Source of the DNA: Phytophthora colocasiae
Taxonomy: Eukaryota; Oomycota; Peronosporomycetes; Peronosporales; Peronosporaceae
Assembly: GCA_018806915.1 (NCBI GenBank)
Contig: JAGKQI010000075.1
Coordinates: 620,001-684,000 of the forward strand
DNA: 64,000 bases
Direction of reading: 5' to 3'
Each line of letters starts with the position of its first letter. The stretch's first letter is position 1. Below, piece by piece: positions 27,149 to 34,910 of the stretch. Position numbers and translations under genes: made by a program. Below the pieces are notes generated by a model. That model had not been told where the DNA came from. It was given only the letters and a program-made list of their open reading frames with translations, and did no database searches.

Positions 27149-27608
27149 TGTAACGGGGTTACACGTACAAGTGGTTGTACCACTTGTAACTCTAACAGTT
27201 AGGATAACTGTTAGAGGTTGGAAATGGGCCTCAGACCTTGGTGTGCTGTACACACCAGTGGATACATGGGCGAACCACATTATTGGATGGTTCGCGTGCA
27301 TTTGTGCATATTATTGGTAGAAAGTAACGGATTTCTACCAATCACTGAGCAGAGTTTCTGCCAACCACACGTTGGCAGACCCTTTAGAAATAGATAACAA
27401 ACAGTTTTAGGAGGTCCATAATTGGCCTTTGCCAAATTCAATAACAGTTCTCATTTTACGGTAATTTGCAGTTTAATTTAGTTATATTTGATTTAATTAT
27501 ACTTATTTAAATAAGTATACTTAAATTAAGTCTATTCTAATTGCACGCTTCCTCATACACGTAAGCGCACGTGTACGCCATCTAATAGGTCTAGGTAGAC
27601 CCATTACA
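27149..27608 (+). repeat. Gypsy III 5' LTR
   Basis: 460 bp. The three differences from the 3' LTR all lie near position 285-300 of the LTR (27434-27450). It contains strong inverted repeats: CTCTAACAGTTA/TAACTGTTAGAG (27190-27216), ATTGGTAGAAA/TTTCTACCAAT (27313-27342) and an AT-rich perfect palindrome TATACTTATTTAAATAAGTA at about 27500. Confidence 0.97.
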
Positions 27609-27610
27609 CC

Positions 27611-27628
27611 TGGTAGCACTTTGTAGTC
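27611..27628 (+). promoter_or_regulatory. Candidate primer binding site
   Basis: TGGTAGCACTTTGTAGTC starts 2 nt after the 5' LTR, the usual place for a site complementary to a CCA-ending tRNA. I cannot name the tRNA from sequence alone. Confidence 0.6.
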
Positions 27629-27657
27629 CGTCCCACGACCGACTGCAGTTCGTTCGT

Positions 27658-28644
27658 ATGGAGTCATACGAACGCGGGGTCGAGAACTCCCCAATGGATC
27701 AGGGATCCACTGGGACCCCACACATGTCCGTGACGCGCACGGACTGTGCCCACCTGTCGGACCCAGAGTGGGAAGCTCTCCAAAGACTTTCGCAAGTCAT
27801 TGGAGAGGCGGCGGTAGCGACGATGCTTCGTACGCTATCGCCGACAGAGCAACATGGTGTTGCTCTGGGGTACATTGTTAAGGAGCAACGGGATGTTGCT
27901 GCCTCGGTGGCTTCTCCGAAGCCACGCGTGGAGTCGTTGAAACTCCACGTGAGTACCTACATGGGGAAGGAGGACGAGACCCTCCTTCGTTGGCTTGTCG
28001 AACTTGACACAGCCGTTGCGGCTCGACGTATCGTCGATCCGATGTCGAAGGTCGCGTTCGCCATGTCATGTCTTGGCGGACGTGCGAGGAGTTGGGCCTA
28101 TGGGCGCCGACTCTCGGATCCTACGTGCTTCAGCACGTACGAGGAGTTCAAGGAGGAACTCAAGCTTGCGTTTGAGCCTCCGAAGAACGAGTTCAGATCG
28201 AGAGCGGAGTTTCTCGATCTGCAACAGGGCAAGGATGATGTTCACACCTTTGCCCAGCGTGCTCGATACTTGGTATCGAACATAGTGGCCAACCCGATCG
28301 ACGAGGCGACCAAGGCCGTCACGTTCATGAAGGGACTAAGAGATGGTCCCATCAAAACATATCTCTTTCGAGAGTATCCGAATACTCTTGAAGAGGCGAT
28401 CAGCCTTGCGATGCAAGAGGAGTTTAGCCGGCGTCAAGCTAAACTCCATGCGAACGCGCCGAAGCCGGCGCGTCCTGTTGCGAAGACGGGAGGTCCGGAA
28501 CCTATGGACCTCTCGAGTGCTACGACTGCTGGTCAACAGCAGCGTAAGAACGTCAAGGTTCGATGTTACCTGTGTGGTAACATCGGTCACTATGCACGCA
28601 AGTGCACAGCGGGCGGGCGTTCAAAAAACGCCAAGGACCAGTAG
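27658..28644 (+). CDS. Gypsy III gag polyprotein
   Basis: Intact ATG-to-TAG ORF of 328 residues. The retrotransposon gag domain is in the middle (SKVAFAMSCLGGRARSWA; FSTYEEFKEELKLAFEPP; DVHTFAQRARYLVS), with a C-terminal CCHC zinc knuckle CYLCGNIGHYARKC. It would form the capsid-like particle and bind RNA. The last 7 codons contain the -1 frameshift heptamer. The coding sequence is dense in perfect inverted repeats, for example 27845-27854 with 27858-27867 and 28194-28203 with 28212-28221. Confidence 0.93.
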   Translation: MESYERGVENSPMDQGSTGTPHMSVTRTDCAHLSDPEWEALQRLSQVIGEAAVATMLRTLSPTEQHGVALGYIVKEQRDVAASVASPKPRVESLKLHVSTYMGKEDETLLRWLVELDTAVAARRIVDPMSKVAFAMSCLGGRARSWAYGRRLSDPTCFSTYEEFKEELKLAFEPPKNEFRSRAEFLDLQQGKDDVHTFAQRARYLVSNIVANPIDEATKAVTFMKGLRDGPIKTYLFREYPNTLEEAISLAMQEEFSRRQAKLHANAPKPARPVAKTGGPEPMDLSSATTAGQQQRKNVKVRCYLCGNIGHYARKCTAGGRSKNAKDQ

Positions 28645-28664
28645 GCGCGGGGCGTCCTACTGGT
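28623..28664 (+). promoter_or_regulatory. Programmed -1 frameshift signal, gag to pol
   Basis: A AAA AAC at 28623-28629 sits in the gag frame exactly as the canonical slippery heptamer requires. After a 7-nt spacer, ACCAGTAGG (28637-28645) pairs perfectly with CCTACTGGT (28656-28664), a 9-bp stem with a 10-nt loop that spans the gag stop codon. A -1 slip enters the open pol frame (KKRQGPVGAGRP). Frameshifting itself is inferred. Confidence 0.85.
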
Positions 28665-32800: not shown

Positions 32801-33347
32801 TTAAGTGGGGGAGGATCTACGGTTGCGTCCGAACAACCGCAGAATGCAACTGATAGCAGCACACTATCAGCTGCGGTGACGCGTGCGACGTCTCGTTCGA
32901 GCAGGAACGAGCGCGCGATGTCTGTGCCGGGCACAGACATGAGAGATGATAGCGAGCAGGCAGGGCCTGCTGCTGACAAGGGCGACAAGCTGAAAGGATT
33001 CAGCTCGGGTGCGCTAGACTTTGTCCAGCGAAGACAAGCCGTCATACGGTTTGTCCAAGATGCTATCGCAGCTTCTGTCGATCGACAGAAGCTGAACGCC
33101 GATACTGTTGGTAGAGGCAACACAAATGAATTCGAAAAGGGTTCATTTGTTTTGTTAGCTACACAAAATCTACCTAGACATGCAGTGTCTGACTTTGGAG
33201 CAAGCAAGCTTGCTCCAAGATTCATTGGGCCGTTCAAAGTACTTGAACGGCATGGTAACGCTTACCGGCTGGACATACCGTCCAGCATGAGGCTCCACCC
33301 GACCTTCTACGTCGGGCGGTTGAAGCCGTACGTGCAGCACGGACTAC

Positions 33348-34349
33348 CTAGGGTTGGTAGTCCGACTGAGGAGTGCGAGAGGCCTGGAAGGCCTTCTCGA
33401 GACCGTCGACACGGTCGATCAACCGGTTCACTCTCGTCCCAAGACCGGACGAGAGGTTCGAGGCAGTCTGAGCTGCCTCGCAGACCTCAGCACGGAGGAC
33501 ACGAACCTCCTGCTTCAGAGCAGCTATCTCAGCGCTCTGTGTCTGCTCCAGCGCAGCAACTCGATCGTGCAGGGCACGATCGTCATGGTCATAGCGTTGA
33601 CCATGCGGAGGGAGTGTTCCCACCCCCTCCGCCGCCGTTGCGCGACGCGCGTGGAGCGATCCGCTGGATTGTTGAGCGGATTGTGGCTCATAAGAGAACG
33701 AACTCTCAAGGGGTTCGTTTTCGTATTCGTTGGAGAGGATTTCCTCCTCATCGAGATACATGGGAGCCGCGGAACGTCCTGATGGAGGACGTCCCGGAAA
33801 TGGTGAGGGCGTACGAAGCCCACCATAACTTGCAGGGGTAAACCCTGCACGAGGAGTGCTGCGGTCAGCCTCAGCACTCGGAGCTCCGCGTGGCTCGAGA
33901 CGACCACGAAGCTCCTTGATGTGATCGGGTACACGGTCGTCCGTGTACCCCAGGAGATCACTTTCAGAGAGGCGTGTTGCCAAGGGTTGGCAACACGGGT
34001 AGAGTGTGCCAAAGGGAACGGCACATGCGATCCCCGCTTCCATGGACAGATCATGGAGGCGTTCACACTTACCACGAGTGGTGTAAGTGTAGTAGCGATC
34101 GCGAGCTGCAGCAACGCGCTCGCGATACGCCAGCAGGGTGTTTGATCTCTGCTAGCGAAGAAGAAATCTTCTTCGCTTGATTCTCCTTGTGGAGAGCATG
34201 GTAGACGGTGACAGATAACTTCTCTGTCGAACCACTGGAGCAGCAGTGCTAGTAGGCACTGCTGAGGTTGTTGTTCCTGCTGCAGAAGCAACAGGAGAGG
34301 CTTGCGCGTCCGCAGAAGCGGACGGAGACGTGGGCGTTGGCGAGTCCAT
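33348..34349 (-). other. Antisense ORF over gypsy III chromodomain and 3' region
   Basis: Minus-strand frame from an ATG at 34349 to a stop at 33348, interrupted once by TAG at 34152-34154. It would give about 334 residues: a Ser/Thr/Ala/Pro-rich start (MDSPTPTSPSASADAQ), a central part with RERVAAARDRYYTY and an acidic MYLDEEEILSNEYENE segment, and a C-terminal coiled coil (DRVAALEQTQSAEIAALKQE). The composition looks protein-like. But palindromic DNA couples the two strands' codons, and another antisense frame (33524-34396) is also open, so coding is uncertain. Confidence 0.4.
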
Positions 34350-34436
34350 TGCGAAATGAACTCGGACTTCTCTCGGGAACTTGACGGTCTTGTCAAGTTC
34401 TGTTGATTGACGTATCGAGACCGATACGTCGAATCT

Positions 34437-34450
34437 TAACGGGGGGATGG
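34437..34450 (+). promoter_or_regulatory. Polypurine tract before gypsy III 3' LTR
   Basis: AACGGGGGGATGG immediately precedes the 3' LTR start at 34451, the expected place for plus-strand priming. Confidence 0.7.
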
Positions 34451-34910
34451 TGTAACGGGGTTACACGTACAAGTGGTTGTACCACTTGTAACTCTAACAG
34501 TTAGGATAACTGTTAGAGGTTGGAAATGGGCCTCAGACCTTGGTGTGCTGTACACACCAGTGGATACATGGGCGAACCACATTATTGGATGGTTCGCGTG
34601 CATTTGTGCATATTATTGGTAGAAAGTAACGGATTTCTACCAATCACTGAGCAGAGTTTCTGCCAACCACACGTTGGCAGACCCTTTAGAAATAGATAAC
34701 AAACAGTTTTAGGAGGTCCATAATTGGCTTATGCCAAATTTAATAACAGTTCTCATTTTACGGTAATTTGCAGTTTAATTTAGTTATATTTGATTTAATT
34801 ATACTTATTTAAATAAGTATACTTAAATTAAGTCTATTCTAATTGCACGCTTCCTCATACACGTAAGCGCACGTGTACGCCATCTAATAGGTCTAGGTAG
34901 ACCCATTACA
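34451..34910 (+). repeat. Gypsy III 3' LTR
   Basis: 460 bp, same length as the 5' LTR with 3 substitutions, followed directly by the GTGGC target duplication. Confidence 0.97.

Follow-up and report, generated by a model that had tools for sequence, protein, structure and literature searches.

What could fill a retrotransposon, in coding and noncoding parts alike, with short perfect inverted repeats? The question is raised by a Ty3/gypsy long terminal repeat (LTR) retrotransposon with a chromodomain, here called family III, at positions 27149-34910 of a 64,000-nt stretch of the Phytophthora colocasiae genome (GCA_018806915.1, contig JAGKQI010000075.1, 620,001-684,000, forward strand). We refer to the whole stretch as the window, and count positions from its first base. 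A sequence-only reading of the window had described the element as paved with such repeats from LTR to LTR and had listed 19 arm pairs, all 19 of which we found to be exact reverse complements. The paving of III is confirmed, and is stronger than was first claimed.

Non-overlapping perfect hairpins with loops of 2-12 nt were counted over the element and in 15 Markov-1 shuffles. With arms of at least 7 bp there are 132 hairpins in the element and 4.5 in the shuffles; at thresholds of 8, 9 and 10 bp the corresponding figures are 99 vs 1.4, 76 vs 0.27 and 37 vs 0.07. The excess also withstood the codon-preserving control that had been proposed for it, in which synonymous codons are shuffled while protein and codon usage are kept: three coding segments together hold 53 hairpins with arms of at least 9 bp, against a mean of 0.83 and a maximum of 4 in 500 shuffles. 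Per segment (100 shuffles each), the values are 4 vs 0.13, 25 vs 0.17 and 24 vs 0.30. At the 7-bp threshold, the gag open reading frame (ORF) has 13 hairpins vs 0.9 in synonymous shuffles, the protease-reverse transcriptase (RT) segment (28602-30742) has 39 vs 2.3, and the RNase H-integrase-chromodomain ORF has 45 vs 2.9. Codon usage and composition are thus rejected as causes by the synonymous and Markov shuffles. The 27 two-kb bins of the window that lie clear of the element contain three hairpins with arms of at least 9 bp altogether.

In the window copy the paving begins and ends at the LTRs. Hairpins whose arms reach 7 bp or more cover 0.41 of the LTR, 0.29 of gag, 0.55 of the protease, 0.39 of the linker, 0.40 of the RT, 0.44 of RNase H, 0.40 of the integrase, 0.37 of the C-end and 0.40 of the 3' untranslated part; in bins of 250 bp the covered fraction lies between 0.17, in the second half of the LTR, and 0.66. 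Hairpins show no preference for codon phase. Loops of every length from 0 to 11 nt occur and are rather purine-rich (G 0.33, A 0.26), and the longest maximal arm is 13 bp. An apparent fall of G+C content with arm length was discarded, as little of it is left once the LTR is left out. Family III is large, with at least 91 places scored in the genome, out of 4604 candidates; an initial pass had given 803 candidate copies. The pattern is kept in all 20 of a set of further copies on other contigs, which are 97-99% identical over a 1.4-kb stretch and were chosen non-randomly from the 91 (16 lower-scoring and four higher-scoring); each has 21-26 hairpins with arms of at least 7 bp.

The sequence-only reading had added that most of the repeats lie in coding DNA whose protein motifs are intact. 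The protein domains are indeed recognizable, with Pfam matches in gypsy order (gag, protease, RNase H, integrase) followed by the chromodomain. The exception is the RT, whose frame is interrupted before 31205 in the window copy, although its catalytic motif YFDD is still seen there; the RT domain was recognized in all four relatives scanned.

Is paving then a property of the host genome, or of certain elements in it? We examined 20 other gypsy loci of the same genome (L001-L020), spread over scores and drawn from 150 RNase H matches scored of 2764 candidates, which are ~37-41% identical to III in RNase H. All 20 are unpaved: over 170 kb, only 45 hairpins reach an arm length of 7 bp, vs 81 in shuffles (one shuffle each), and a single one reaches 9 bp. 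The count of 45 lies below that of the shuffles, as if hairpins were avoided in these loci. The earlier observation that neighbouring gypsies lack the pattern therefore holds for the flanking bins and for all 20 loci (the elements it called gypsy I and II were not matched by name), and a density equal to that of III was not found in unrelated gypsies. The confinement of paving to one clade speaks against a general host process, and a host-wide process is rejected because all 20 of the other gypsies examined in this genome are unpaved.

The nearer relatives of III are also paved. Two families were hand-picked, B (L044, L045, L046 and L049) and C (L041-L043, L047, L048, L050 and L051), which share 47-72% of residues with III in the main aligned pieces. 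Both are paved, with arm sizes that differ by family. In III, maximal arms are in excess at every length from 5 to 12 bp, with a local maximum at 9 (observed/shuffled, 5: 100/61, 6: 52/16, 7: 35/3.2, 8: 21/1.4, 9: 39/0.2, 10: 21/0.1, 11: 12/0, 12: 2/0). One B locus has no excess up to 6 bp, and then 15/3.2, 8/1.6 and 8/0.1 at 7, 8 and 9 bp; one C locus has 213/153, 115/41, 37/11 and 8/2.5 at 4, 5, 6 and 7 bp, and little beyond. Arms therefore range over 4-6 bp in C, mostly 7-9 bp in B, and 5-12 bp in III. Against synonymous shuffles, three C loci gave 83 vs 21, 85 vs 22 and 122 vs 32 (standard deviation 4). Expressed per kb, hairpins with arms of at least 7 bp number 18.4 in III, 6.0 in B, 2.3 in C and 0.29 in other gypsies, and those with arms of at least 5 bp number 27, 15, 29 and 5.7, where the B set includes one locus (L056) that holds flanking DNA. 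In one C copy, the 5' LTR marks an increase in coverage, and coverage drops again beyond the 3' LTR. In one B copy, whose LTR was not located, the increase is seen upstream.

Two compositional features of the stems were seen in these families. The 5-6 bp stems of family C have more T than A in the 5' arm (153 vs 75 in C41, 99 vs 70 in C47), while the whole sequence is unskewed. In L045 and L049, 77% and 60% respectively of the 7-11 bp stems have G at the outer end of the 5' arm, possibly because of codon context.

Protein relatives of III have 85-87% identity in several Phytophthora species and ~60-70% in Globisporangium splendens (among the best 120 of 5412 listed); none was found in viral contigs, nor in bacterial and archaeal genomes. 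In the protein tree, Globisporangium proteins stand beside III (support 84/86) and beside B (96/96), inside the clade formed by III, B and C. For this reason the paved families probably descend from an ancestor that predates the split between Phytophthora and Globisporangium, unless elements moved between hosts. The catalytic motif of the RT is YFDD in III, where it was read over 30454-31300 of the window, in all nine B and C loci scanned and in 72 of 72 pattern-matching proteins (of 131 retrieved), and is YLDD in all 20 unpaved gypsy loci. As a single contrast between two clades, this is a lead toward a cause in the RT. One Phytophthora ramorum protein (P0038) matches the RT of III over residues 2-212 (88%) and family B over residues 530-1187 (79%), and is either a mixed gene model or a recombinant element.

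The individual hairpins are not conserved between the families. When III stems are mapped on B and C, Watson-Crick (WC) pairing is kept in 43-46% of cells, about what independence gives at 64% identity; for slid partners the figure is 24-26%. Cells changed on both sides between families are again WC in 17 of 35, 18 of 38 and 12 of 32 cases, against backgrounds of 36%, 32% and 36%, so that covariation between families does not stand out from background. Conserved functional hairpins at fixed places are rejected, as positions are not kept between families; for the same reason we conclude that hairpins turn over while the habit of having them persists. Over short times some hairpins do covary. 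Within family C, 192 hairpin sites compared over seven loci include 59 that are invariant, 14 that vary in the loop only, 116 that are broken in some copy and three that show two perfect versions.

Covariation is seen in one series of like hairpins, which carries 13 of the 14 plus-strand TCNGGGA motifs of III (Table 1). Eleven of the 13 lie at a hairpin apex with 4-9 outward pairs, and their outer stems differ; the remainder of the window, seven times longer, has five such motifs on the plus strand. Alignment of all 14 units at the apex shows 90% of cells paired, 10 of 104 unpaired and one G-U. Changes on both sides are found in 28 of the 104 cells and in six of the eight pairs, and one-sided changes in none; the units score 0.67 for covariation, whereas shuffles give 0.23 and none of 500 attains the observed value. 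A first run used 12 of the 14 motifs, and the later addition of those at 29507 and 27699 changed little. Some of the units may be tandem relatives, to judge from a 72-bp tandem repeat over 29559-29707; if the units are so related, their arms changed together.

To ask how stems fare after insertion, we defined them over all copies (union stems), since definitions from one copy bias the comparison of stems with other sites. In III, singletons are found at 60 of 506 stem sites vs 152 of 886 others (P = 0.008), and shared variants at 12 of 506 vs 48 of 886 (P = 0.006); at three other cut-offs the P values range from 0.019 to 0.17. Two B pairs gave 5 of 427 vs 100 of 3414 (P = 0.04) and 11 of 321 vs 151 of 2610 (P = 0.09). 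In all five C pairs compared, stems change at the same rate as the rest. Since inserted copies lose stems almost as neutral DNA does, the comparison suggests that upkeep acts in the copying cycle and not on chromosomal DNA.

Pairing within the stems is mostly strict. When the middle pair of five-pair windows in III is scored, WC pairs number 364 vs 47.7 expected, G-U pairs 27 vs 22.8 and A-C pairs 32 vs 21.6; under the synonymous null, observed and expected G-U are 5/3.6, 7/8.8 and 11/10.3. The same treatment of the RNA phages MS2 and Qbeta gave WC pairs at 2.92 and 3.08 times expectation, G-U at 1.60 and 1.63, and A-C at 1.52 and 1.39. Relative to WC, tolerance of wobble is 0.03 in III, 0.04 in B, 0.01-0.08 in C and 0.30-0.31 in the two phages, and is thus about tenfold lower in III than in MS2 and Qbeta. 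Tolerance of A-C is 0.07 in III, 0.23 in B, 0.01-0.14 in C, and 0.27 and 0.19 in the phages. The phage control speaks to strictness rather than to strand, because at the weaker setting neither phage clearly separates G-U from A-C. Among non-overlapping hairpins of III at three thresholds, A-C mismatches outnumber G-U by 34 vs 18, 29 vs 16 and 20 vs 13, which is suggestive only.

The reading that best accommodates these observations, although we rate it slightly below an even chance, is hairpin-templated copying by the reverse transcriptase of the clade, filtered by protein function. During the copying of RNA or complementary DNA (cDNA), chance short inverted repeats would allow the nascent DNA to fold back or to change strands; its own other arm would then template a few bases before copying returns. 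An exact complement would thereby be written into one arm, and the stem lengthened outward by an amount typical of the family, while later mismatches would be repaired by the same process. Damaging events would be removed through gag-pol function, so that those surviving in coding DNA would be mostly synonymous. We infer the RT of the clade as cause, the switch itself and its direction. This copying reading is favoured because paving is limited to one clade with its own RT; because its extent matches the reverse-transcribed part in III and in one C copy; because wobble is scarce, arm lengths are family-specific and positions unconserved; and because stem loss in inserted copies is near-neutral and the TCNGGGA hairpins covary. 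A toy switch model (four single runs, one per setting, with no protein constraint) gave either a peak at 9-11 bp ending near 12 or a peak at 5-6 bp, depending on seed and patch length. In its broadest form the proposal is that the RT of an ancient clade of chromodomain gypsies rewrites the element, as a heritable signature of its copying, into a mosaic of perfect hairpins in each cycle, with stem length a property of the family's enzyme; this we advance tentatively, as a possibility that falls short of even odds.

A number of results weigh against this copying model. No direct signs of template switching were found, and the 5'-base asymmetry of one published switch model is absent in III. The toy model depletes stems of 4-5 bp, which III does not, and the excess in III spreads over arms of 5-12 bp and has no single size. 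Writing into one arm should leave one-sided changes, and in 10 of 10 comparisons none reached P < 0.05; derived changes by arm are uneven in III when C41 is among the outgroups (13 vs 27 and 21 vs 46) and even when B alone is the outgroup (53 vs 54). That test is weak but not powerless, since on simulated data it reached P < 0.05 in one of two runs with few cycles and in none of four with many. The sequence-only reading had proposed a comparison of sister copies for compensatory substitutions in the arms; none was found among 59 changed pair-cells in the 20 III copies over 1.4 kb. Nor do stems diverge more from outgroups than other sites do (0.14 vs 0.14). Hairpin density is not lower where the protein is conserved, and in one C locus the 300 bp with the most hairpins are those of the conserved RNase H block. 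Correction would have to be incomplete, because eight of the 24 common hairpins in the 1.4-kb stretch carry a shared mismatch in most copies (the other 16 are perfect in most copies). The A-C tolerance of B is phage-like, and longer III stems, with at least nine WC pairs, have an excess of single G-U (13 vs 0.1) and A-C (20 vs 0.2), which decay of perfect stems would also give.

The strongest alternative is diffuse selection that favours numerous local hairpins, whether in the genomic RNA or in single-stranded cDNA, their position being unimportant and point mutation supplying the changes; the purpose might be packaging by Gag, protection from nucleases, or prevention of annealing between sense and antisense. 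Folding energy (window means) is 37.9% above shuffled in III and 14.2% in C41, compared with 29.8% in MS2 and 33.1% in Qbeta. Such selection would also fit the similar coverage of coding and noncoding parts, the lower variability of union stems in III, the purine-rich loops with TCNGGGA at 13 apices, and derived changes on both arms. Against it, G-U stays near background in five-pair windows although RNA folding tolerates G-U, and the sense minus antisense difference in folding is small (-0.88 +- 0.73 in III and -1.35 +- 0.73 in C41; -2.05 +- 1.42 in MS2 and -4.81 +- 1.13 in Qbeta), which sets III apart from Qbeta but not clearly from MS2. More than 100 weak sites per element would have to be selected without their positions being kept between families, and selection of this kind does not alone explain arm lengths that are family-specific. 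Selection on sense RNA is thus weakened, not rejected, and as an explanation of the whole pattern we hold diffuse selection to be quite possible, if on balance doubtful. With respect to the three options that had been put forward at the outset (structure in the genomic RNA, a property related to defence, or near-palindromes made perfect by copying), copying fits best, with switching not caught directly, and structured RNA stays viable, given a folding energy relative to shuffles above that of both phages and stems that are mildly less variable in III.

A protein that reads a set stem length, such as the Gag nucleocapsid or the integrase, could lead each family to keep the stems that fit it. 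The differing arm ranges of C, B and III, the last with its peak at 9 bp, are what such recognition would produce; yet loops of all lengths from 0 to 11 nt are present, and no common motif is evident outside the TCNGGGA series beyond end-base preferences (outer G in 77% of B45 stems). Some 130 copies across every domain also exceed any need for binding sites, and we regard this explanation as improbable. Evasion of host RNA silencing, by paired targets and self-folding small RNAs, is more improbable still. Total hairpin lengths do cluster at 18-25 nt in III and at 21-23 nt in one of two B loci measured, and small RNAs of 21 and 25-26 nt are recorded for Phytophthora in the excerpts of the literature consulted; but typical C hairpins are only ~13 nt long, and unpaved gypsies are abundant in the same genome. 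Chance, codon usage or an assembly artefact has next to no claim, as both nulls are far exceeded and hairpins recur in 20 of 20 copies from other contigs.

The element itself has the marks of a Ty3/gypsy retrotransposon, namely LTRs of the form TG...CA and a short target duplication (Table 1). An integrase-core ORF at 34911-35750 (+) stands directly to the right of the insertion; the paved element appears to sit within another retroelement. Antisense ORFs at 33348-34043 and 33524-34396 (-) overlie the chromodomain end and the 3' untranslated part. The longer of them has 11 relatives in Phytophthora, annotated as hypothetical proteins (the best in Phytophthora citrophthora, 84% identity over 69% of the query); these ORFs are either genes or the antisense of related elements. 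Elsewhere in the window are Helitron_like_N ORFs at 49283-51736 (-) and 62212-63633 (+), a piece of a Pif1-type helicase at 46381-47484, and an ORF at 18047-19927 (-) with GAG-pre-integrase and integrase core, copia-like by its domains.

Table 1. Coordinates of the family III element, its parts and selected hairpins, in window positions.
Feature	Position	Strand	Remarks
Family III element, Ty3/gypsy LTR retrotransposon with chromodomain, hairpin-paved	27149..34910	+	repeats, domains, hairpin scan
Target-site duplication GTGGC, left	27144..27148	.	5 bp
Target-site duplication GTGGC, right	34911..34915	.	5 bp
5' LTR, 460 bp, TG...CA	27149..27608	+	3 differences vs 3' LTR
gag ORF	27658..28644	+	PF03732, PF19259, CCHC knuckle
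Protease-to-RT ORF, window copy	28602..30809	+	PF08284
RNase H, integrase, chromodomain ORF	31205..33841	+	PF17917, PF17919, PF17921, PF00665, PF24626, PF00385
3' untranslated part, also paved	33842..34450	+	coverage 0.40
3' LTR, 460 bp	34451..34910	+	
Hairpin, arm 12, loop 3, in LTR	27190..27216	+	repeated 34492-34518
Hairpin, arm 11, loop 8, in LTR	27313..27342	+	repeated 34615-34644
Perfect 24-nt palindrome	29149..29172	+	
TCNGGGA apex series	29228..30075	+	motifs at 29237-30066; 13 of the element's 14 plus-strand motifs
Hairpin, arm 11, loop 6	31070..31097	+	
Hairpin, arm 11, loop 2	31260..31283	+	
Hairpin, arm 11, loop 5, RNase H block	31489..31515	+	
Hairpin, arm 11, loop 3	32040..32064	+	
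Hairpin, arm 12, loop 2	33069..33094	+	
Hairpin, arm 11, loop 2	33195..33218	+	
Hairpin, arm 11, loop 3, 3' untranslated part	33973..33997	+	
Hairpin, arm 11, loop 2, 3' untranslated part	34154..34177	+	

The paving points either to an unusual copying process or to an unusual need for folded RNA, and thereby bears on an open question: where perfect RNA stems come from, and whether entire genomes can be shaped by directed errors of copying while their proteins constrain them. As one genome holds paved and unpaved gypsies and three families that differ in stem length, mutational and selective readings give different, countable predictions. If the copying reading is true, the sequence of the element records a property of its enzyme, maybe since before the split of Phytophthora and Globisporangium to judge from the protein tree, and directed mutation, rather than selection alone, has moulded a selfish element. 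If selection is the answer, the element has a coding RNA that, set against shuffles, folds as strongly as the two RNA phages do.

Among the papers listed in searches of the open-access literature, a scope that leaves most subscription papers outside, we found no report of hairpin paving in a retroelement; the comparisons that follow rest on excerpts of the papers cited. Among described oomycete elements, Chronos comprises chromodomain gypsies with a second, plant-type RNase H (Ustyantsev et al. 2017, PMC5348765). Like Chronos, III is an oomycete Ty3/gypsy element in which the integrase is followed by a chromodomain; a second RNase H was not detected at E <= 0.001 in the window ORFs or in the four relatives scanned. 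With RNA viruses that have ordered structure on a genome scale, and with the folded genomes of phages MS2 and Qbeta, III shares a folding energy well above shuffled throughout its coding RNA. Its stems differ from theirs in being longer without interruption, local, and poor in wobble pairs.

Template switching is documented to perfect inverted repeats, as in the quasi-palindrome mutations of yeast (PMC3820800) and in a further study (PMC8604942), and the creation and upkeep of RNA hairpins by template switching has been argued (Monttinen and Loytynoja 2022, PMC8794818). The copying proposed here would resemble these cases (PMC8794818, PMC3820800) in writing an exact complement and so perfecting imperfect stems. 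Those concern replication of host DNA, whereas the paving extends over an entire element, in which no switch event was observed.

The closest precedent, by analogy, appears to be found in the mitochondrial genes of Nematomorpha, which hold numerous perfect inverted repeats in coding sequence (Mikhailov et al. 2019, PMC6649704; a 2023 follow-up is PMC10380579). In that report, both arms encode conserved residues, palindromes are gained and lost between species, and template switching or repeat conversion is proposed. The nematomorph repeats are of at least 15 bp, with a mean of 43 bp and arms of up to 142 bp, and nearly all of the long ones are perfect. III likewise has perfect inverted repeats within conserved coding sequence. 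In contrast to the nematomorph repeats, arms in the paved clade stop at ~12 bp (the longest in III being 13), short of the 15 bp used there, and their size differs by family; a third of the common hairpins are mismatched; and the paving lies not in mitochondrial DNA but in a clade of nuclear retrotransposons, LTRs included.

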